Virus record (IMG/VR): IMGVR_UViG_3300046009_005836
Coordinates: 1-33,464 of that record
Source of the DNA: a virus
Reading direction: 5' to 3' (one strand)
DNA: 33,464 nucleotides
The position numbers and the translations under genes are program-made. The notes under the pieces were generated by a model. It was not told the origin of the DNA. It did not search any database and saw nothing but the letters and a program-made list of their open reading frames with translations. Positions 1 through 14,826 of this stretch are shown here, one piece after another; within the stretch, counting starts at the first letter, position 1; the number at the start of each line of letters is the position of its first letter.

Positions 1-247
1 GAACGCGGTCCCAGACATCAATCTGAACGACCGCTGAACCGCCTAGATCGTCCTTGTTATCGAATGGGTTAATCGTATCTGCCCCGATGGTGATGAACGG
101 GAAAGCCGTCTCTAGCTCGCTGTCAGCCGCCTGGGGGACATCGGTAAAGATCGCCACCAACGGGCTATAATAAGTGCTGAGAAGGCTAGTGACGGCGCTA
201 TCATTGAGCCGTGTGTAGATCGCCTGTTGCAGATCGTCGGATTTCAT
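1..247 (-). CDS. DUF3168 tail-completion-like protein (partial, C-terminus beyond left edge)
   Basis: The visible N-terminal 82 residues begin MKSDDLQQAIYTRL and contain the stretch TAFPFITIG followed by VQIDVWDR. This resembles the DUF3168 family, small proteins encoded next to HK97 gp10-like genes and thought to act at the head-tail junction or tail terminator. The ATG overlaps the stop of the gp10-like gene in an ATGA, which implies translational coupling. The reading frame is open to the window edge, so the C-terminus is missing. The family call rests on motif memory and on the gene order. Confidence 0.8.
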   Translation of the reverse strand, partial: MKSDDLQQAIYTRLNDSAVTSLLSTYYSPLVAIFTDVPQAADSELETAFPFITIGADTINPFDNKDDLGGSAVVQIDVWDRV

Positions 248-702
248 TTTGTGGTTTTCTCCGCCTTGGCCTTGGCCTTCGCAATTGCAACATTAACACG
301 TTTTAGCATCTTTGGGATGGTACGCTCGACAGCGGGAATCCAAGCGGGACGAGGTGCGATTCTAAAAGTGCCAAACTCAAGGTAGTAAGCGTAGTCAAGC
401 CGTGAGCCTATGGCTTTTGAATATTCGCCCCGGTCTTCATTATAGATAGAACTGACAAGCGTACCTGTATCTGTTGCCGGGGCTTGCCCTGGGGCGGATG
501 CGCGGTGAATTTTATCGCGGCCACGAGCATACTCCCGGCCCGTCTTTGGCGGCCCTTGGATAGCACGCTTTACGTCACTCACAGCCTCGATGGCTGCGGC
601 ATTGACGATCAGACCTAACTGCCTCGAAATATCGCCCTGATAGGCCCGGATTGCCTCCTGAACCTCTTTCAAGCCATTGATCTCGACCTTCACGTCCCTC
701 AA
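244..702 (-). CDS. HK97 gp10-like head-tail/tail completion protein
   Basis: This 152-residue protein has the HK97 gp10 signature: ASAPGQAPATDTGTL near residue 70, then YAYYLEFGT and PRPAWIPAV in the C-terminal third. Family members are small virion proteins of the neck or tail-completion complex. The tail end is Lys/Ala rich. The longest frame starts at a TTG (702-700) that overlaps the upstream stop as TTGA. A GTG three codons later is an alternative start. It sits in the usual order: connector, joining protein, gp10, DUF3168. The non-ATG start is the only oddity. Confidence 0.88.
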   Translation of the reverse strand: MRDVKVEINGLKEVQEAIRAYQGDISRQLGLIVNAAAIEAVSDVKRAIQGPPKTGREYARGRDKIHRASAPGQAPATDTGTLVSSIYNEDRGEYSKAIGSRLDYAYYLEFGTFRIAPRPAWIPAVERTIPKMLKRVNVAIAKAKAKAEKTTK

Positions 703-1043
703 GACGCAACTCCACCATCAACGTCGATTTGCAACCACTTGTTGGCAAACTCTAGGTTGTCTATAAACCTGATGTTGTGTATTTTATTCCGAATCTGCAC
801 TCGATCTGTCTCACGCAAGCCGCTGACATAACGCACCACGAGCCTGAGTCGCACCGTAGCCTCCACGCGGTCGGAAGCATAGCGTTCAGACCCGCTTACC
901 GGCACGACATAAGCCCTTGTCGGTGCGCCGCTTACAGTCGCCCAAGCCTGCGTCATGCCGCCAGCACCATCACTTGTGAGAGTCTTGCGCTCGAACGTCA
1001 CTGGTTCTTTGAGCTTGCCGGAATTAAGATCGCAGCACTTCAT
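699..1043 (-). CDS. Head-tail joining protein (SPP1 gp16-like)
   Basis: This 114-residue protein contains EPVTFERKT, then AWATVSGAPTRAYVVPVSGSE and later LVVRYVSGLRETDRVQI. This is the layout of phage head-tail joining (H-T-join) proteins, beta-barrel stoppers that close the portal after packaging. I place the start at the ATG at 1043, which overlaps the upstream stop as ATGA. The frame stays open further upstream, but that extension is Cys/Arg-rich, lies inside the neighbouring gene and looks non-coding. The downstream gp10-like gene overlaps its stop by four bases. Confidence 0.83.
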   Translation of the reverse strand: MKCCDLNSGKLKEPVTFERKTLTSDGAGGMTQAWATVSGAPTRAYVVPVSGSERYASDRVEATVRLRLVVRYVSGLRETDRVQIRNKIHNIRFIDNLEFANKWLQIDVDGGVAS

Positions 1044-1810
1044 CGTGAGTTGAACTCCACAATGTCCATATTGACAGCGACATCGACGGTGCTGGCCGAT
1101 ACGTTGGCAAGGAAGCCGAAGTCGCATAGCGGCGGGAAGTAGAGCGGCGGATCAAAGACCACATCGAACAAGCCGGAACTTTGCGGATACTCGGTGACGA
1201 GAAGCATCGAGGTATATGGCGCGGCCACTTCGAGGATATTCTCCCGCTTGTAGAGGACAATATTTGCCTTCTTGTCGGCATCGCTTGATACGGTGATGTT
1301 TCTCAATGCCGCGCTGCGGTCACGGGGAGTGGTGTAGACGGCCATTTCGGTCTTGCCTCGACCCAGTGCGCCATCTGTGATCGTCGCCCAGTCTTGGCCT
1401 CCTGTGGCGTTCTCAATGATAATTGTTCCTGCGTGCGATCCATCCGTCTGTGTTGCATAGGTTCCAGACTTGGACACATAGGAATCAAACAGCCGGATGA
1501 ATGACTTCGACGTTGCTGCGCTTGCAGAAGCCCCCGCCGTTTCCAGTGCCTCGGTGGTGTAGTCACCAAATTGATCGATGCCGATAAGCGTAACCTCCCG
1601 CGCACCGGAACCGTTGGCGGTGTCGTTGGCGTTGCCGCCAGCCTTGATGCGGAGATGAACGGGAGCATTGGCTTGCGGCGTACGGTAAAAGCCAGACCTC
1701 GACACAGGCGTGAAATTCGAGCCGATAGATGTGTTGCGGCCAAACTTGTTAAATGACCGACAGCCGGGAGCGAGGCCACGCGCAATGTCAAGGCTGGATG
1801 GGAAGGTCAT
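1040..1810 (-). CDS. Virion structural protein of the GSGAREVT type
   Basis: The 256-residue protein has an N-terminal FGRNTSIGSNF segment, a central run NANDTANGSGAREVTLIGID, and a C-terminal beta-rich part with VYTTPRDRSAALRN. I recall this pattern (substance abuse of Gly/Ala/Thr, GTGAR-V-GLD core) from virion structural proteins of many marine podo- and siphoviruses, where the exact role is unclear. There it is often near neck or fibre genes. Here it lies between the connector and the joining protein, with four-base ATGA overlaps on both sides, so it is probably a neck or head-surface protein. No transmembrane segment or enzyme motif is visible. Confidence 0.68.
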   Translation of the reverse strand: MTFPSSLDIARGLAPGCRSFNKFGRNTSIGSNFTPVSRSGFYRTPQANAPVHLRIKAGGNANDTANGSGAREVTLIGIDQFGDYTTEALETAGASASAATSKSFIRLFDSYVSKSGTYATQTDGSHAGTIIIENATGGQDWATITDGALGRGKTEMAVYTTPRDRSAALRNITVSSDADKKANIVLYKRENILEVAAPYTSMLLVTEYPQSSGLFDVVFDPPLYFPPLCDFGFLANVSASTVDVAVNMDIVEFNSR

Positions 1811-2484
1811 ATCCGAGCCACCTTGAATTGCGCCATGATGGATTCAGCGCCAGAATCAACATAGGCTTGTGACGGATCGCAATCGTCGCCGCGATGGGCG
1901 TAGAGGAACGCTGCGAGTTGCTTCACAGCCCGCTTCATGGTCGATGGAACAGACGCTGCATTAGCATATCCAGCCACATATACGATCTCAATGGCATTAT
2001 TAGAACGCAATGCAACCGGCCAAGTCTGGCCGCGCTTCAGTGTAAGCCTTCCAGGCGTGCGGTATGTATCGACATCAAACACATTTGCAGTCGTGATCGA
2101 AGTTGAGTTGCTATCCTCGTCATAAGTAGTGATCGAAGTGATAGACACCAAAGGCCATCGTGGCAGCATGACCGATTGCAACATATTGCTGCGATACAAA
2201 TCATTGATAGACATCTCTCGCACACCGTCCCACCACGCCTCACCACCAGCGGGCCATTGATCGAGTGCAAGCCGCCACGTCTGTGAGATAAAGGCTAGAT
2301 TAATTTGATCCTCTATTAATCTGCGAGCCTCCATAATCTGATCTGCTATAATAGAATCTTCAGAATTATCATCAATTCGCAAATATTGCTTCACATCCAT
2401 AAGTGAAACTGGTTCACTTTCTGGATTTGTTACAATTTTTGATCCGCGATCTTGGTATAGATTAATCGTAGAGCGCAATGACAT
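1807..2484 (-). CDS. Head-tail connector protein (phiE125 gp8 / HK97 gp6-like)
   Basis: This 225-residue protein carries EPVSLMDVKQYLRID near residues 24-38 and then ADQIMEARRLIEDQ and SQTWRLALDQWP. These are hallmark segments of the phiE125 gp8 family of connector or adaptor proteins that bind below the portal ring. The C-terminal part (VPSTMKRAVKQLAAFLYAHR) is the usual helical end. The start ATG shares one base with the previous stop (TGATG). Base composition turns AT-rich over its N-terminal third, at the junction with the fibre-like block upstream. Confidence 0.88.
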   Translation of the reverse strand: MSLRSTINLYQDRGSKIVTNPESEPVSLMDVKQYLRIDDNSEDSIIADQIMEARRLIEDQINLAFISQTWRLALDQWPAGGEAWWDGVREMSINDLYRSNMLQSVMLPRWPLVSITSITTYDEDSNSTSITTANVFDVDTYRTPGRLTLKRGQTWPVALRSNNAIEIVYVAGYANAASVPSTMKRAVKQLAAFLYAHRGDDCDPSQAYVDSGAESIMAQFKVARI

Positions 2485-2813
2485 CAGTTTATCTCACTCT
2501 CAATCGAAACAATTATTTTCTCATCGTTTGGAAATGTTTCTATTGAATTATCAAGAAATGTAACCTCAAACTCGCAAGAATAGATACCAATTTTCTGAGT
2601 ATCTGCTGCTTGCCAATTGTATCTTACAATTCCACCAACGCCATTGATTATGGTCGCTGCCTGATCAATAACAAGATTATTGTTTGTCATATTTTTCATA
2701 TGAAAACGAACTGAAGCATTGGTAATATTAATAGCAGTTCCATTAATATTTGTTAACGTAGCCTCTATTGAAGGGCTTGTATCATTCTGCTTGATTACGA
2801 ACGTTGCCATCAT
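2484..2813 (-). CDS. BppU N-terminal-like (Ig-like) structural protein
   Basis: This 109-residue beta-rich protein has the pattern KQNDTSPSIEATLTNINGTA, then VRYNWQAADT, then GIYSCEFEVTF and TFPNDEK. That matches the N-terminal domain of BppU baseplate upper proteins (DUF2479-like), a small Ig-like fold used by many phages in receptor-binding or decoration proteins. The whole protein equals one such domain. Two consecutive ATGs overlap the repeat-protein stop (ATGATG), so the start is uncertain by one codon. The gene is AT-rich compared with its connector neighbours. Confidence 0.72.
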   Translation of the reverse strand: MMATFVIKQNDTSPSIEATLTNINGTAINITNASVRFHMKNMTNNNLVIDQAATIINGVGGIVRYNWQAADTQKIGIYSCEFEVTFLDNSIETFPNDEKIIVSIESEIN

Positions 2814-3865
2814 GCAACCCTTCTAGAGCTGTTGTTAATAGAAGATTTTCTAGAACTATTTCCAATCAATACATTATTTGCCCCAGTATTGATATTAGCA
2901 TTATTGTTTGACAAATTCCAATGCGCATATCTTCCCGTTCCAGAATTTATGCCGATTATTGGAATAATCCCTAAAATTGTTATTGTTGAAAATGGACTTT
3001 TTACAGATTTTCCAGAACTGATTTTGGGAATCAGAGTTGAAATTGTTAGAGAAGATGTTGGACTCAATATTGATTTGCCCGAAAAAACATTCGGAGCAAA
3101 ACTATTTATTGCTATAATTGCATTGGGAATATTTCGACTTTTCCCAGATGCTACTACTGGAGTCAGAACGGAAATATTAATATTTGCAGACGGAACACTT
3201 ATAAATTTACCAGAGCTGAAACTTGGAGGTAAACCTTCAATATTAATATTCGCAGTTTCAAGATTAATTGTTACTCCAGTTCTAATTACTGGAGCATTGC
3301 CATCAATTGCAATTTGAGCGTTGGGTACAAGAATTTCTGTTGATGTGAAAAATGATGGAGCGTGAGCATAAAAATCAATTTGTCCAACAGGAACAGGAAT
3401 TGATTTCCCTGCATAAATGCTTGGATCATTAACTGAAATTGCAATTGATGCAGATGGTGATGATACTATAACGCCAATCGAAATGATTGGTGCAAATGAT
3501 GAAACTGCAATAATTGAATTTGGAGCAAATATTGATTTGCCTGATGATACACCAGGAGCAATTGCTGCAATTTCAATATTAGATATTGGAACAGAAAGAC
3601 TTTTTCCAGCTGATATAGATGGATTATTAGTTGTGATTGCGATTGATGCATCTGGAGAAAATATTGATTTTCCAGAAGATATAGACGGAGCAATTTCCGT
3701 AAGAGTGATTAAAGCACTTGGAACCGATACAGATTTTCCAGAAAAAATTGCTGGATCTATTACCGCAACGGCAATAGAAGAATTTGGAACAAATATATTT
3801 ATTGCAGAAACTAACGGACCATCATCTGCAAGAGGTAGTTTTGCAAGTGCATTAAAGCCGAGCAT
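2810..3865 (-). CDS. Tandem 22-residue repeat structural protein
   Basis: I do not recognise a named family. The 351-residue protein has a 21-residue leader, 13 consecutive repeats (residues about 22-309) and a 42-residue Asn/Ser-rich tail. The repeat consensus is hydrophobic-x-x-P-x-x-x-I-x-I-x-x-x-x-P-x-I-x-SGKS. The first unit is 24 residues and the other twelve are 22. Two alternating beta-like segments per repeat suggest a solenoid or stacked beta fibre. The start ATG is preceded by AAGGA at a spacing of six. It sits between a BppU-like protein and a tail-fibre-associated protein, so a virion fibre or decoration role is likely but inferred. Confidence 0.8.
   Translation of the reverse strand: MLGFNALAKLPLADDGPLVSAINIFVPNSSIAVAVIDPAIFSGKSVSVPSALITLTEIAPSISSGKSIFSPDASIAITTNNPSISAGKSLSVPISNIEIAAIAPGVSSGKSIFAPNSIIAVSSFAPIISIGVIVSSPSASIAISVNDPSIYAGKSIPVPVGQIDFYAHAPSFFTSTEILVPNAQIAIDGNAPVIRTGVTINLETANINIEGLPPSFSSGKFISVPSANINISVLTPVVASGKSRNIPNAIIAINSFAPNVFSGKSILSPTSSLTISTLIPKISSGKSVKSPFSTITILGIIPIIGINSGTGRYAHWNLSNNNANINTGANNVLIGNSSRKSSINNSSRRVA
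2939..3802 (-). repeat. 13 degenerate 66-bp coding repeats
   Basis: This is the coding region of the 22-residue repeats. The units are strictly in phase (66 bp, first unit 72 bp) and diverged at DNA level, with the most constant element coding for SGKS. Three units have lost SGKS (endings IGVI, TSTE and RTGVT). This is protein-level repetition inside an open frame, not a CRISPR or intergenic array. Confidence 0.85.
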
Positions 3866-3874
3866 CGCTGTTCC

Positions 3875-4285
3875 TTAAAGATGCGCTGCTGCAATAAAGA
3901 ACTGGTCAATCTGCTCTTCAGTAAGATTTAGGTTCTTTGCAAGTTGAAGCAGTAGTGGATCGTCTCTACGAAACTCTAGTGCGTACTCCCAAGTAATCTT
4001 AGTAGCTTCATCTTGACTAGCAATCATGTTTTCAACATCAGACAAAAGCCCCTGTTGAAGAAGAAGTAGCCTACACTGACGAGGTGTAATAGAATAAGGT
4101 GGAATAGTTGCCGGATCTGGTGCTCTAATTATCCAGTTATCTCCGTCTAGCCCTTCAAAATAATCCCCTGTTTCTCTAATAACAGGATGCCAAGAAACTT
4201 TCTTATGGGGTATATCTACCGGCTTACTATTGTAAGAACGGGTTTCCTGAAACACATTATTGATTAACAGTGCATATTCGTTCAT
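3875..4285 (-). CDS. Tail-fibre-associated protein with PRQ-type C-terminal domain
   Basis: The 136-residue protein has an N-terminal half ending GDNWIIRAPDP and a C-terminal half ITPRQCRLLLLQQG, then ITWEYALEFRRDDPLLLQLAKNL. The C-terminal module (T-P-R-Q-x-R-L-x-L-x-x-x-G-L, E-Y-A-x-E-x-R-R-D) is common in small phage proteins encoded beside fibre genes, in chaperone-like or fibre-end positions. It ends just before the repeat-protein ribosome site. Exact function is not known to me, and fibre assembly is the best guess. Confidence 0.65.
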   Translation of the reverse strand: MNEYALLINNVFQETRSYNSKPVDIPHKKVSWHPVIRETGDYFEGLDGDNWIIRAPDPATIPPYSITPRQCRLLLLQQGLLSDVENMIASQDEATKITWEYALEFRRDDPLLLQLAKNLNLTEEQIDQFFIAAAHL

Positions 4286-4297
4286 TTAATTGTACCT

Positions 4298-5014
4298 TTA
4301 TGGATTAGCATACGCTGATGTTGGAGGAGTAAAGTTTGAAGTGTATCCTGCTGTACCTTTTATAATTCTCAATTCATCAAGATATCCGTTTAAAGGTACG
4401 TTACCAAGGTTAAATCCTGAAGCACCTATTATAAAATAATTTCCTGAATCATTTTGTCTAAAACTAGTATTATCTGTAACAGAAGTATCTAACGTACCAT
4501 CAATAAACAATCTTAATGTAGTTCCTTCTCTAGAAACGGCAATATGATACCACTGTGATGCGTTTATAGTACCTACACTTTGCAAAAGATTTGTATTGTT
4601 ATTTGCAATAGTAACAATATTAGTGTTTTCAATTCTTATTCCTATACCGTTTACAAAACCAGCACCATATCTTGTATCTAAAATATAGTGTCTTGTGCCA
4701 GTAGCATTACGGTATACCCAAAAATCAATTGTAAAATCCCCTGTACCAAAATCTAAAACACGATTATTATTATATGCTACTTCTAATCTAGCTCCTCCCC
4801 CCGGTGTAATTGAAAAAGATGATCCTCCAAATTTAGATTGAGTTGTACTTATCTGAGCTGACACAAAAGCAGTAGCAGTAAGGTTATATTTACTGTTATC
4901 AGTAAATGTTGTACTACCGTTAGAACCATCAAAATGAAATAATGAAGTAATATTATTCCAATAAAGGTCTTCCGCTGTAATACCAAAACCAGATAACTGA
5001 GTTACTGCTAACAT
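4298..5014 (-). CDS. LamG/concanavalin-like lectin domain protein
   Basis: This 238-residue protein is essentially one jellyroll domain of the LamG/laminin-G-3 kind. Diagnostic pieces are SLFHFDGSNGSTTFTDNS, FGGSSFS, FGTGDFTIDFWVY, QWYHIAVSREGTTLRLFIDG and YLDELRIIKGTAGYT. Such domains bind glycans and occur on phage surface proteins, where they may help adsorption or surface attachment. It has no signal peptide. It is AT-rich and placed between fibre-like genes in the head module, so it may decorate the capsid instead of the tail. Confidence 0.88.
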   Translation of the reverse strand: MLAVTQLSGFGITAEDLYWNNITSLFHFDGSNGSTTFTDNSKYNLTATAFVSAQISTTQSKFGGSSFSITPGGGARLEVAYNNNRVLDFGTGDFTIDFWVYRNATGTRHYILDTRYGAGFVNGIGIRIENTNIVTIANNNTNLLQSVGTINASQWYHIAVSREGTTLRLFIDGTLDTSVTDNTSFRQNDSGNYFIIGASGFNLGNVPLNGYLDELRIIKGTAGYTSNFTPPTSAYANP

Positions 5015-5017
5015 TAG

Positions 5018-6064
5018 TTAATTGTCCCTAGCAGCATTAGTTGTGTAATGAATCTTTACTCCATGCAACCTTGCATCTATTGCTAGAGTATCTGAAGCAT
5101 TTGCAGGATCTCTTTTTACTTGAAAAATAACATACTCTTCATTACCTGGAGTTCCAGCAACTGTCAGTGCAGAAGACTCAGCAGTAACGTAAATATCGTT
5201 TGTTGTACCACCAGTATCGGTTACAGTTACAGCAGTTCCAAAAGCAGTATCGGCTGCATCATCATCTGCAAAAGCAACAGCTTGTATTTCCCAAGCTACA
5301 CCGAAGTTAGTTGTCGTACTAGCATGACTCCAGATAAACTGGCAGATTAGTGTCCCTTCATCCCAACTCTTCGGCATTTGAATAGCAAACTGAGCAAACT
5401 CCTGAGTTGTCGTATCAAAGTCGAATGTTTTAAGCATGACTTTGTTAGTACTAGTTTCTACTGTACCACCCTGTGGGCCATTTGTTGTTCTCGGATACAT
5501 TGCAACAGCAGGAACCCAGATAGTCTGCTGTCCGACAAGTTCGAGTGTAGTCCTCTGTGCAGCAGCATCGGCATCGGCAACAAGAGTACGACCAGCAGCA
5601 GTGAATGTAGCAAGAGCTGCAGTTCCAGAACCTGTAAAATATGGCAAGCGGTCGGCTGCGGATGTTAGACTCGCAATCGCTGCAAGTTCTGCGTCATATG
5701 CTTGGACGTTTGTACCGATAACAAGTCCAAGATTTGTCCTTGCTGTCGATGCATTTACAGCATCAAGATTTGCAATTGCACTTGCCGGTGCAGTTATAAA
5801 TACTTCGGAAGAACCGGAAAGATTAAGCAATGATCCAGTTGAACTTTGAACAAGTGTTCTGGAAAGTGTTGTGCCGGAAGATGTATATGTTCCGGTTCCG
5901 ATTTCCCATGCAGTTCCATTTTCAATCGTGTAATGAACAACTGTTCCGTTTGTTACTCCTGCACTATCAAAAGTTTGATAACCAGAAACGGCAGAACCAA
6001 GCGTAATTGTGCCTGTTCCTGCCGTAGCAGTTGTCATTTTTGCACGATTGAAAACGTCAGGCAT
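5018..6064 (-). CDS. Fibre-like structural protein
   Basis: The 348-residue protein starts [18 protein letters not shown], followed by [17 protein letters not shown] and VFITAPAS, a module repeated in fibre-like proteins of many marine and alphaproteobacterial phages. The middle ([30 protein letters not shown]) is the linker typical of long phage fibres. The C-terminal domain ([39 protein letters not shown]) is a beta-rich domain I have seen in similar proteins. Together they indicate a trimeric-fibre-type virion protein. The receptor is unknown. Confidence 0.72.
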
Positions 6065-6076
6065 GATTCACCGAAT

Positions 6077-6508
6077 TTATGCTACAGTGAAAGAGAAAAT
6101 ACCATTTGCATTCCAGATGATCTTGAAATCTGTTCCGTCTCCGGCAGATTGAGATCCATCAAAATTAATAAATGCAATTGGTGGATCATTTGCATCTGTA
6201 TCATTATAAATTACAGCATAAGATGCCGTAATCGAACCGCCTGATGCTGTCCAAGTCAAATCATCTGCGTCGAATTTTGCATCATTAGTTGTCACAGTTG
6301 TAACAGCAACGTTTGCTAATGCTTGGCCTCCAGCAGTATAACCAGTTCCGGTTGATGCTTCCGTTCCAGTGATACCGGCAAGAGTTGTGTTCGTTGCATC
6401 AAATGTTGCGCTAGAATACAGCTTCACCTTATAAGTATCGCCATGAGCATTTGAGCCTTCTGCGAATAGTTTTGCTGTATGATTGTAAAGAGAAATGGTG
6501 ACGGCCAT
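6077..6508 (-). CDS. Conserved phage structural protein, function unknown
   Basis: The 143-residue protein begins MAVTISLYNHTAKLF and continues KVKLYSSATFDATNTTL, GTGYTAGGQALANV and LTWTASGGSITASYAVIYND. This combination is familiar from conserved proteins encoded beside capsid and fibre genes in diverse tailed phages. It is small, Thr/Ala/Gly-rich and without membrane segments, which fits a virion component. Its stop overlaps nothing, and its start shares a base with the stop of the preceding gene (TGATG), so the two are probably translated together. No specific role can be assigned. Confidence 0.62.
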   Translation of the reverse strand: MAVTISLYNHTAKLFAEGSNAHGDTYKVKLYSSATFDATNTTLAGITGTEASTGTGYTAGGQALANVAVTTVTTNDAKFDADDLTWTASGGSITASYAVIYNDTDANDPPIAFINFDGSQSAGDGTDFKIIWNANGIFSFTVA

Positions 6509-6738
6509 CAGATCTTATCCTTCGTTGAATTTTCGCTTGATTTTGAGCGCCTTGATTTGGATTCAACCGCTATTTGGACTTTTTTTTCAAGTGGTGCAAT
6601 ATCAGAGATTTCGATTGCTGCGTTATTGGCAAGTGCAATTTCAGCAGTTTTGCCAGTAACCTGATCGCCCATCTTGAAATGAAAAACAGTGTGACCTTCC
6701 GGAGCGATTGAAAAATCTCTCGTCAGAAGTGCTTTCAT
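6508..6738 (-). CDS. Small protein following the capsid genes, unknown function
   Basis: The 76-residue protein starts MKALLTRDFSIAPEGHTV and has a beta-rich N-terminal half (VFHFKMGDQVTGKTAEIAL). Its C-terminus is basic and Ser/Lys-rich (SKSRRSKSSENSTKDK). The start has a good ribosome site, GGAG at suitable spacing. Short proteins with this N-terminus occur after major capsid genes in related phages, and I do not know their function. A GC-rich hairpin lies just upstream (6758-6779). Confidence 0.6.
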   Translation of the reverse strand: MKALLTRDFSIAPEGHTVFHFKMGDQVTGKTAEIALANNAAIEISDIAPLEKKVQIAVESKSRRSKSSENSTKDKI

Positions 6739-13146: not shown

Positions 13147-13525
13147 CTTGAATCTTGTTCAATGCTATAAGGACTGCTTGCTGAATCGGGGCTTGCTGGA
13201 GCGATCCATCTTCGTTGGAGATGTCGATTGTCTCACGCCAGCGGGCTTGCGTCTTGAGCCAGAAGATCATTGCGGTTGTGTCGCCGTCCATTGCTTTCTT
13301 GTAAAGCCGACCGGCAATGGATGCGTTAGCCTGGGCCTTGGCGGTATCAAGTTCATCTCGATAGTATTTAGTCAATGTCTCGGTTGACATACCGAGAACC
13401 TTGGCAAGCGTAGGCTGCGGCGTGCCGACGAGCGTATGAAGTTGCACTGCCTTGGCGATTTCTTCGCTGCGGCCTATCTGGGGGCGACCTACTTTGTTTT
13501 TGATAGGAGCTGGTTCGTCGGTCAT
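13130..13525 (-). CDS. terS: Terminase small subunit
   Basis: The 131-residue protein starts with a basic region GRPQIGRSEEIAKAVQLH, followed by an HTH-like stretch GTPQPTLAKVLGMSTETLTKYY and then IAGRLYKKAMDGDTTAMIFW and LKTQARWRET. That is the layout of small terminase subunits of alphaproteobacterial phages, with a DNA-binding N-terminus and an oligomerising middle. It recognises the packaging start and loads the large subunit. The gene overlaps the ParB-methyltransferase stop by four bases (ATGA). Confidence 0.88.
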   Translation of the reverse strand: MTDEPAPIKNKVGRPQIGRSEEIAKAVQLHTLVGTPQPTLAKVLGMSTETLTKYYRDELDTAKAQANASIAGRLYKKAMDGDTTAMIFWLKTQARWRETIDISNEDGSLQQAPIQQAVLIALNKIQDAEGE

Positions 13526-14826
13526 CTGGATGCTTCAAGTTCCGCACGCTTGGCTGCAATTGCATCGGTGTAAGATCCGGATGCGTCCTTCTCCCAGTCG
13601 TAGCGTGAGGTGGCAACGTCCTCAAATGTCTGGCCGTTTGATTCCAGCGTGGCTTTCTGGCCGGTGAAGTCCTGCCAGCGTTTGACGATCACGTCGCAAT
13701 ACTTGGGGTCCAGTTCCATCAGGCGGGCTTGGCGATTGGTCTTTTCGCAGCCGATCAGCGTGCTGCCGCTGCTGCCGAACAGGTCAAGCACGACCGCGCC
13801 GCGCCGGGTGGTTTTGTCCAGCGCCTCCTCGGACAGGGCGACCGGCTTCTGTGTCGGGTGAACGTAGGTGGACGCGCCGTCTTTGTTGATTGTCCACACC
13901 GAACCGATGCGCTTGCCACACAGTTCAGCGCCACGGTGCCACACAAGGGCGACCTCGTAGTCGCTACTGAAGGTGCGCTTCAGGTCGCCAATGCCGCCAC
14001 CTGGCTTGTGCCAAATAACGATATTTGTTGGGTATCCGAACCCGCTGAACATCTCAATCCACTTTGTCTGGACTTTCCAGCTCGTCCAGACAAACACCCA
14101 CCCCGTGGAGAACATTTCAACAATCGGCGTAATGTCCAAGAACTGGTCGTCGTTTGCCAGCACATCGAACTTCTGGGACTTTGTGCGCATGTTCGACTGG
14201 TACTCGACTCCATAGGGCGGGTCCGTGAAAACCATGTCGGCCTTGCAGCCCGCCATCAGTTTGTCCACCGCGTCCACCGACGTGCTGTCACCACACATCA
14301 GCCGATGCTTGCCGAGCACCCACACGTCACCCAGCACTGTGACAGCGCGGGCAGGCGTTTCCGGCACTGCGTCTTCATCGGTGAGTCCTTCTATTTTCTC
14401 GGCCAACAGGTTGCCAAGTTCGCTTGCATCAAATCCGGTGAGGCTCAGGTCAAAGTCGAGCGCTTGGAGATCGCCAAGTTCCACCTTGAGCAGCTCTATA
14501 TCCCATCCGGCATTTAGCGCCAGCTTGTTGTCAGCGATAACATAGGCGCGGCGCTGTGCCTCTGTGAGGTTGTCAAGAACGATGCACGGGGCTTCCTTGA
14601 TGCCGAGCTTGCGGCCAGCCATGACGCGCCCGTGGCCCGCTATGATGCCTCCCTCGGCGTCGATCAGGACGGGATTGGTCCAGCCGAATTCCTTGATAGA
14701 TGCTGCGATCTGCGCCACCTGGGCGTCGGAGTGAGTTCGGCTATTGCGGGCGTATGGGATCAAGGATTCGATGGGGCGATATACAATCTGAAGATTATTG
14801 GATTTATCTTTCTTGCTCGCAGACAT
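13522..14826 (-). CDS. ParB-domain DNA methyltransferase (N6-adenine/N4-cytosine type)
   Basis: The 434-residue protein joins an N-terminal ParB/Srx-like domain (PYARNSRTHS near 25-34, GHGRVMAGRKLG near 64-75) to a class-beta DNA methylase: catalytic DPPY near residues 202-205, HPTQKPV near 323-329 and the AdoMet motif DLFGSSGST near 348-356. It likely methylates adenine N6 or cytosine N4 in phage DNA, protecting it from host restriction or marking it for another process. The target is unknown and no partner nuclease is encoded beside it. It heads the packaging operon. A TTGCAA-bearing region and a terminator lie upstream. The ribosome site is weak. Confidence 0.93.
   Translation of the reverse strand: MSASKKDKSNNLQIVYRPIESLIPYARNSRTHSDAQVAQIAASIKEFGWTNPVLIDAEGGIIAGHGRVMAGRKLGIKEAPCIVLDNLTEAQRRAYVIADNKLALNAGWDIELLKVELGDLQALDFDLSLTGFDASELGNLLAEKIEGLTDEDAVPETPARAVTVLGDVWVLGKHRLMCGDSTSVDAVDKLMAGCKADMVFTDPPYGVEYQSNMRTKSQKFDVLANDDQFLDITPIVEMFSTGWVFVWTSWKVQTKWIEMFSGFGYPTNIVIWHKPGGGIGDLKRTFSSDYEVALVWHRGAELCGKRIGSVWTINKDGASTYVHPTQKPVALSEEALDKTTRRGAVVLDLFGSSGSTLIGCEKTNRQARLMELDPKYCDVIVKRWQDFTGQKATLESNGQTFEDVATSRYDWEKDASGSYTDAIAAKRAELEASR

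Follow-up and report, generated by a model that had tools for sequence, protein, structure and literature searches.

What is the role of a protein built around thirteen 22-residue repeats and encoded among the structural genes of a tailed bacterial virus? The question is raised by the window, i.e., the whole stretch of DNA analyzed here, a viral record 33,464 bases long that is probably incomplete; no tape-measure gene was recognizable among its ORFs. The answer favored here, with somewhat better than even confidence, is that the repeat protein is the stalk of a virion neck appendage (collar whisker), with the array as its shaft, and that it works together with a BppU_N collar protein. This reading is based on the repeat itself, the pairing of genes, the setting among neck genes, the variable number of units and the rapid divergence of the array, and on relatives in which the array is fused to a tail terminator.

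Layout and fold of the repeat protein

The repeat gene is an ORF of 351 codons on the minus strand (2810–3865), with an ATG start and AAGGA a few bases 5′ of it. Its 351-aa product begins with a leader of 26 residues, continues with 13 units of 22 residues each and ends in an Asn/Ser-rich tail of 39 residues:

3788..3865, minus: leader, residues 1–26 (MLGFNALAKLPLADDG...), a module common to other repeat-array proteins
2930..3787, minus: thirteen-unit array, 22 residues per unit, residues 27–312 (autocorrelation, unit HMM, position frequencies)
2810..2929, minus: Asn/Ser-rich C-terminal tail (YAHWNLSNNNANINTGANN...SSRRVA), residues 313–351 and stop (identity among three lineages)

The original prediction had described an in-phase repeat of 13 units of 22 residues, with a leader and an Asn/Ser-rich tail on either side, and both parts of this description hold. 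Similarity autocorrelation of the array in the middle of the protein gives sharp peaks at lags 66, 22, and 44 (1.59, 1.46, and 1.43, respectively), compared to a best value over all lags of 0.24 in 1000 shuffles. The unit HMM recognizes 13 units (E = 3.7e-68, with a profile partly built from this same protein), which start at residues 27, 49, ... 291 and are each spaced by exactly 22. The 24-residue first unit that had also been proposed is absent, and arises only when two leader residues are added to unit 1. SGKS, put forward as a motif of the unit, is present in 6 of the 13 units and GKS in 8, and is thus not general to all of them. A Walker-A reading of GKS was rejected, because the preceding Gly/Ala is wrongly spaced and five units have no GKS.

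The consensus of the window array is P-A-A-N-I-x-I-A-x-x-A-P-S-I-x-x-G-K-S-V-x-V, and that of 44 distinct repeat proteins is P-A-A-[TN]-I-x-[IL]-A-A-x-A-P-S-I-S-x-G-K-S-V-x-V. Position frequencies in the units of relatives are 100% for the second Pro, 90% for the first Pro and 79–90% for Gly. Mean identity between units inside the window array is 36%, and TRF found no DNA-level tandem repeat (VNTR) in the repeat gene; these two properties indicate that the array is old, and it would then be maintained by selection at the protein level. Weaker autocorrelation at lags 55, 33, and 77 hints that each unit falls into two halves of 11 residues, both beginning with Pro.

The AlphaFold2 model of the window protein (12 sequences) has a mean pLDDT of 47, and the three short strands that it places in each unit recur with the period of the repeat; the pLDDT of a terminator-fusion protein (see below) is 40. 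No significant match to solved structures was obtained by Foldseek (best PDB matches with E of 1 or worse), and its viral matches were only weak and uncharacterized, an outcome of little weight in view of the low model confidence. The model hints at a β-solenoid, a shape already raised in the original prediction, with a solenoid and a trimeric β-fiber both possible. The usual rise per solenoid coil is 4.8 Å, and the 13 units would be about 6 nm long if one unit corresponds to one coil.

Relatives, gene neighborhood and neck partners

The window protein (P0001) has no family match in Pfam, PHROGs, NCBIfam, or in a PDB sequence search, which agrees with the original prediction that it belongs to no named family. 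It also has no tblastn match in 50,697 phage records. Relatives in IMG/VR with the window-type array and the tail RYAHW...SSRRVA include the near-identical L002 and L003 and the further lineages L004 and L054. The same unit is found, within a second type of protein, in about fifty further loci; complete genes of this type have 7–17 units, and most of these loci gave independent tblastn E-values between 1e-35 and 1e-41. The number of units among relatives ranges from 3 (L109) to 17 (L113), as had been anticipated when repeat number was predicted to vary. A scan of genome contigs identified a single bacterial contig with an array (L030, Proteobacteria bacterium UBA964, second type), and a class-wide genome search around UBA964 revealed no other genome with an array.

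Three parts are common to the relatives: a leader, an array (3 to 17 units) and either of two partners associated with the neck. The leader has the common form MLGxxxLxxxPLA. The corresponding regular expression, M-x(0,3)-[LF]-G-[FSAT]-x(1,3)-[LF]-x(3,5)-[LF]-[AG], matched 19 of 4816 ORFs (at least 80 aa) in the fetched loci, and all 19 encode repeat-array proteins.

On the minus strand of the window, the order of genes is terminase, portal, protease, capsid, 147-aa protein, seven-gene cassette, adaptor, 256-aa protein, stopper, and Neck1. The features around the repeat gene are as follows:

2484..6738, minus: low-GC appendage cassette, 33–44% G+C (per-gene G+C; capsid-side and adaptor-side genes 47–60%)
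5018..6064, minus: fiber-like protein in the low-GC cassette (partial matches to several tail fiber PHROGs, best E = 2e-11)
4298..5014, minus: LamG/concanavalin-like protein (PF13385, E = 1.3e-20)
3875..4285, minus: 136-aa protein, encoded between the genes of the lectin-like and the repeat protein (phrog_6034, E = 4.5e-19; family of unknown function)
2484..2813, minus: stand-alone BppU N-terminal-domain protein, 109 aa (Pfam PF10651 BppU_N, E = 2.6e-8, above the family cut-off)
1807..2484, minus: head-tail adaptor, Ad1-like (phrog_442, E = 1.9e-24; phrog_40)
1040..1810, minus: 256-aa conserved neck-block protein (phrog_8198, E = 1.3e-16; family of unknown function)
699..1127, minus: head closure/stopper Hc1 (phrog_25, E = 6.5e-16)
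244..702, minus: tail completion/Neck1, gp10-like (phrog_5, E = 1.5e-16)

The true start of Hc1 is probably internal, at MKCCDL, where its relatives begin. The LamG-like protein is a candidate for the carbohydrate-binding member of the cassette. The low G+C of the cassette stands against about 55% on either side (47% in the adaptor gene; 53–56% in the genes for the 256-aa protein, stopper, and Neck1), and this drop suggests a separate origin of the cassette. Elsewhere in the window, an ORF adjoining the terminase genes (13522–14826) appears, by reading of the sequence, to encode a ParB-like N-terminal domain followed by a DNA methyltransferase.

In window-type loci, the repeat gene precedes the adaptor, stopper, terminator and tail-tube genes, and the terminator is encoded separately (phrog_176 match in L002). 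The original prediction had placed the repeat gene in the head module; its position among structural genes stands, and is narrowed to the neck side by the BppU_N pair, followed by adaptor, stopper and Neck1, and by the terminator fusion in relatives. The slot between capsid and adaptor in relatives fetched by their adaptor gene is a hot spot of many different, unrelated appendage genes. In L046, the pre-adaptor slot (3821–5044) encodes NTTGxxNxAIGxxAL repeats, which to judge from their sequence resemble YadA-head-like trimeric adhesins.

The start of the BppU_N gene overlaps the stop of the repeat gene, and its Shine-Dalgarno sequence (AGAAGGGTTGCATG) is embedded in the last codons of the repeat gene; the two genes are therefore probably translationally coupled. 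The repeat protein itself has no BppU-like N-terminal domain (Pfam, PHROGs), this domain being encoded by the separate overlapping gene. A BppU_N homolog is located immediately 3′ of every window-type array. Among 80 loci retrieved in an adaptor-gene search, an array protein abuts BppU_N in 10 of the 10 that have BppU_N and no array is found in the 70 that lack it, which amounts to a strong association and not to a tally of independent events, since the 10 loci represent about 5–6 independent lineages and some of the 70 may end early upstream. Arrays in the 10 BppU_N loci have 22- or 21-residue units. A different 21-residue unit (GTGAITLPALTVSGAAERSI) occurs in L104–L109 in the same layout as in the window type, with the shared leader in L104–L107 and, in a slightly different form of the pattern, in L109. 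The window protein thus shares its layout with L104–L109 and with gp57/gp56 of phage CRP-6: a leader, an array and an Asn/Ser-rich tail, with a BppU_N gene that overlaps or abuts the array gene. The smallest protein of this kind is a minimal 114-aa product in L109 (641–985), which has the leader, three 21-residue units and the tail, and is encoded directly 5′ of the BppU_N gene. A large LamG gene overlaps a stand-alone BppU_N gene in the archaeal Halorubrum tailed virus 25 (HRTV-25; L149, 1–4839).

In proteins of the second type, the array is followed by a C-terminal domain that matches the tail terminator family phrog_179 (three proteins scanned, E about 1e-6). The fused domain is 40–46% identical to a stand-alone terminator encoded by the very next gene, which also matches phrog_179. 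Such tandem paralogs, array-fused then stand-alone and 40–45% identical, are seen for instance in L030 (7941–9985), L010 (5953–7997), and L022 (5466–7258). BppU_N genes are absent from all 56 second-type loci, and P0001 has no match to the phrog_179 terminator domain. One array is thus combined with two different neck-type partners, BppU_N or a fused terminator, and by known biology both point to the neck. Second-type arrays mix 23- and 24-residue spacings with 22, which is to be expected if their loops accommodate short insertions. Hydrophobic segments such as IQGLLFLFANLYGAAA or LSGLSFLFSPLLGHGAA are present at the N-terminus of, or inside, some of these arrays (L005, 827–2440; L015, 6001–7575; L030, 7941–9554).

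The array evolves differently from its surroundings. Between the window and L004, identity is 95% in the 256-aa protein, 80% in the adaptor and BppU_N, 81% in the tail, and 40% in the array; among the three lineages, tails are 61–81% and arrays 39–41% identical. Array identity between lineages (40%) barely exceeds that between units of one array (36%), and no one-to-one correspondence of units was found when the arrays of relatives were compared. Part of the conservation of the tail may be due to the embedded ribosome-binding site of the BppU_N gene. The much faster divergence of the array, as judged from these comparisons, would fit an exposed position.

A proposed neck stalk and its alternatives

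For phages TP901-1 and 936, published models arrange the BppU-like N-domains of the neck passage protein as a ring on the adaptor, with fibers that carry carbohydrate-binding tips (PMC6669499, PMC10747895). The neck-stalk reading draws on this adaptor-seated collar by analogy. The 109-aa BppU_N protein would form a ring or collar on the head-tail adaptor, as proposed for the lactococcal neck passage structures, and the conserved tail (or the leader) of the repeat protein would anchor it to this ring in the virion. The shaft would consist of thirteen stacked coils of 22 residues, probably in the form of a β-solenoid. The fast-diverging, length-variable array would face outward and lengthen the reach of the neck, and may touch or bind host-surface glycans jointly with the lectin-like cassette protein, the LamG-like and fiber-like cassette proteins supplying the binding tips. 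Adjacency to the adaptor is not universal, since the pairs of array or LamG gene with BppU_N in CRP-6 and HRTV-25 adjoin no annotated adaptor gene.

Many phages place decoration genes after the capsid gene, and the cassette starts directly after the capsid gene and the 147-aa protein. This position would suit a head fiber or capsid decoration protein, seated with its leader or tail on the capsid lattice and projecting its array from the head. Such a role is considered unlikely, as pairing with BppU_N and the adaptor and the terminator fusion in relatives indicate the neck and not the lattice. BppU domains serve in tail baseplates too, where BppU_N was first defined, and the repeat protein could be the shaft of a tail fiber or baseplate receptor-binding structure, attached by BppU_N at the distal part of the tail, like its counterpart in the lactococcal phage TP901-1. 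The 24-residue VPRAxLxIxAYxPTV arrays of Gordonia phages Kampe and Gibbles are annotated as "minor tail protein," and fiber-like genes share the cassette with the repeat gene. However, the window-type gene precedes the adaptor-to-tail-tube genes instead of lying among tail-tip genes, and the fused terminator belongs to the head-proximal end of the tail, which makes a position at the distal tail quite improbable.

The lowest probability is given to a flexible low-complexity spacer without defined fold, acting as a linker or in a non-structural role. The low pLDDT of the window protein and the rapid divergence of the array would agree with it, but the period of exactly 22, the predicted strands in step with the units, and the invariant second Pro with strongly kept Gly and alternating Ile/Val (44 distinct proteins) argue against it, and insertions are mostly of one or two residues; it is very unlikely that the array is such a spacer.

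The neck-stalk reading can be extended to a transferable neck-fiber module. It would have a common leader and a solenoid stalk whose length varies freely, from 3 coils to 17 or more. Either of two interchangeable anchors, BppU_N as a separate collar protein or a fused terminator duplicate, would mount it on the neck, and its surface would be replaced faster than the adjacent neck genes. This extension is proposed tentatively, at clearly less than even confidence. If the neck-stalk reading is true, phages of uncultured, probably alphaproteobacterial hosts have neck stalks built of repeats, with BppU_N as a stand-alone collar partner. The fusion to the terminator would then serve as a sequence marker by which proteins at present labeled "hypothetical" could be annotated, and the natural length series (3 to 15 units, constant ends) would be suited for testing appendage length against adsorption.

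Comparison with known systems

To our knowledge, neck appendages are not well known outside T4 and a few lactococcal phages. The lactococcal neck passage structures (NPS) of TP901-1 and the 936 group resemble the window system in the BppU-like N-domain associated with the adaptor (in the window by gene order, with the adaptor gene directly 3′ of BppU_N), the structural-gene context, the link to carbohydrate binding and the variability. They differ in that the NPS combines the BppU-like domain and a fiber with coiled-coil shaft in one polypeptide, whereas the window has a separate BppU_N gene and a 22-residue array as shaft. Instead of the coiled-coil shaft and C-terminal carbohydrate-binding module, the window protein has a predicted β-repeat array and a short Asn/Ser-rich tail, and the lectin-like domain is encoded by another gene (4298–5014). 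No sequence match of the window array to lactococcal NPS was found.

The array-terminator fusions of uncultured phages (L005–L025, L030, L110–L145) have the same 22-residue unit, with 33–38% identity overall, and some have the leader MLGxxPLxxxPL. They differ by the phrog_179 C-terminus and the absence of BppU_N, by 23–24-residue units in some, and by arrays that in some are broken by a hydrophobic LLFLFANLYG segment.

Gordonia Kampe gp39 and Gibbles gp37 have V-P-x-A-x-L-x-I-x-A-x-x-P-x-V arrays that tblastn finds weakly similar to those of the second type (best E = 2e-5), but a 24-residue period, other N- and C-terminal domains and no adjoining BppU_N gene. The unit HMM score for the Gordonia arrays is negative and tblastn with P0001 gives no match to them, weak matches coming only from second-type arrays and P0002. 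The two Gordonia proteins (L027, 3809–5455; L029, 2384–3754) share the N-terminus and array and differ in their C-terminal domains. PHROG 32032, represented by Orf59 of Rhodococcus phage REQ3 (L028, 4833–5924), has a 22-residue periodicity and a weak match to second-type arrays (E = 3.5e-6), but no match to the window protein.

Among isolated phages, Roseobacter phage CRP-6 has in gp57/gp56 the leader MFGTSPFAAATFAG (M-F-G-x-x-P-F-A), repeats of 23 residues and a tail rich in Asn, and the BppU_N gene overlaps the repeat gene. Its repeat is not recognizably related residue by residue, and the pair is located upstream of the capsid gene. The novelty of the window system is therefore in its arrangement and its unit, the phage neck appendage being a kind of object already known.
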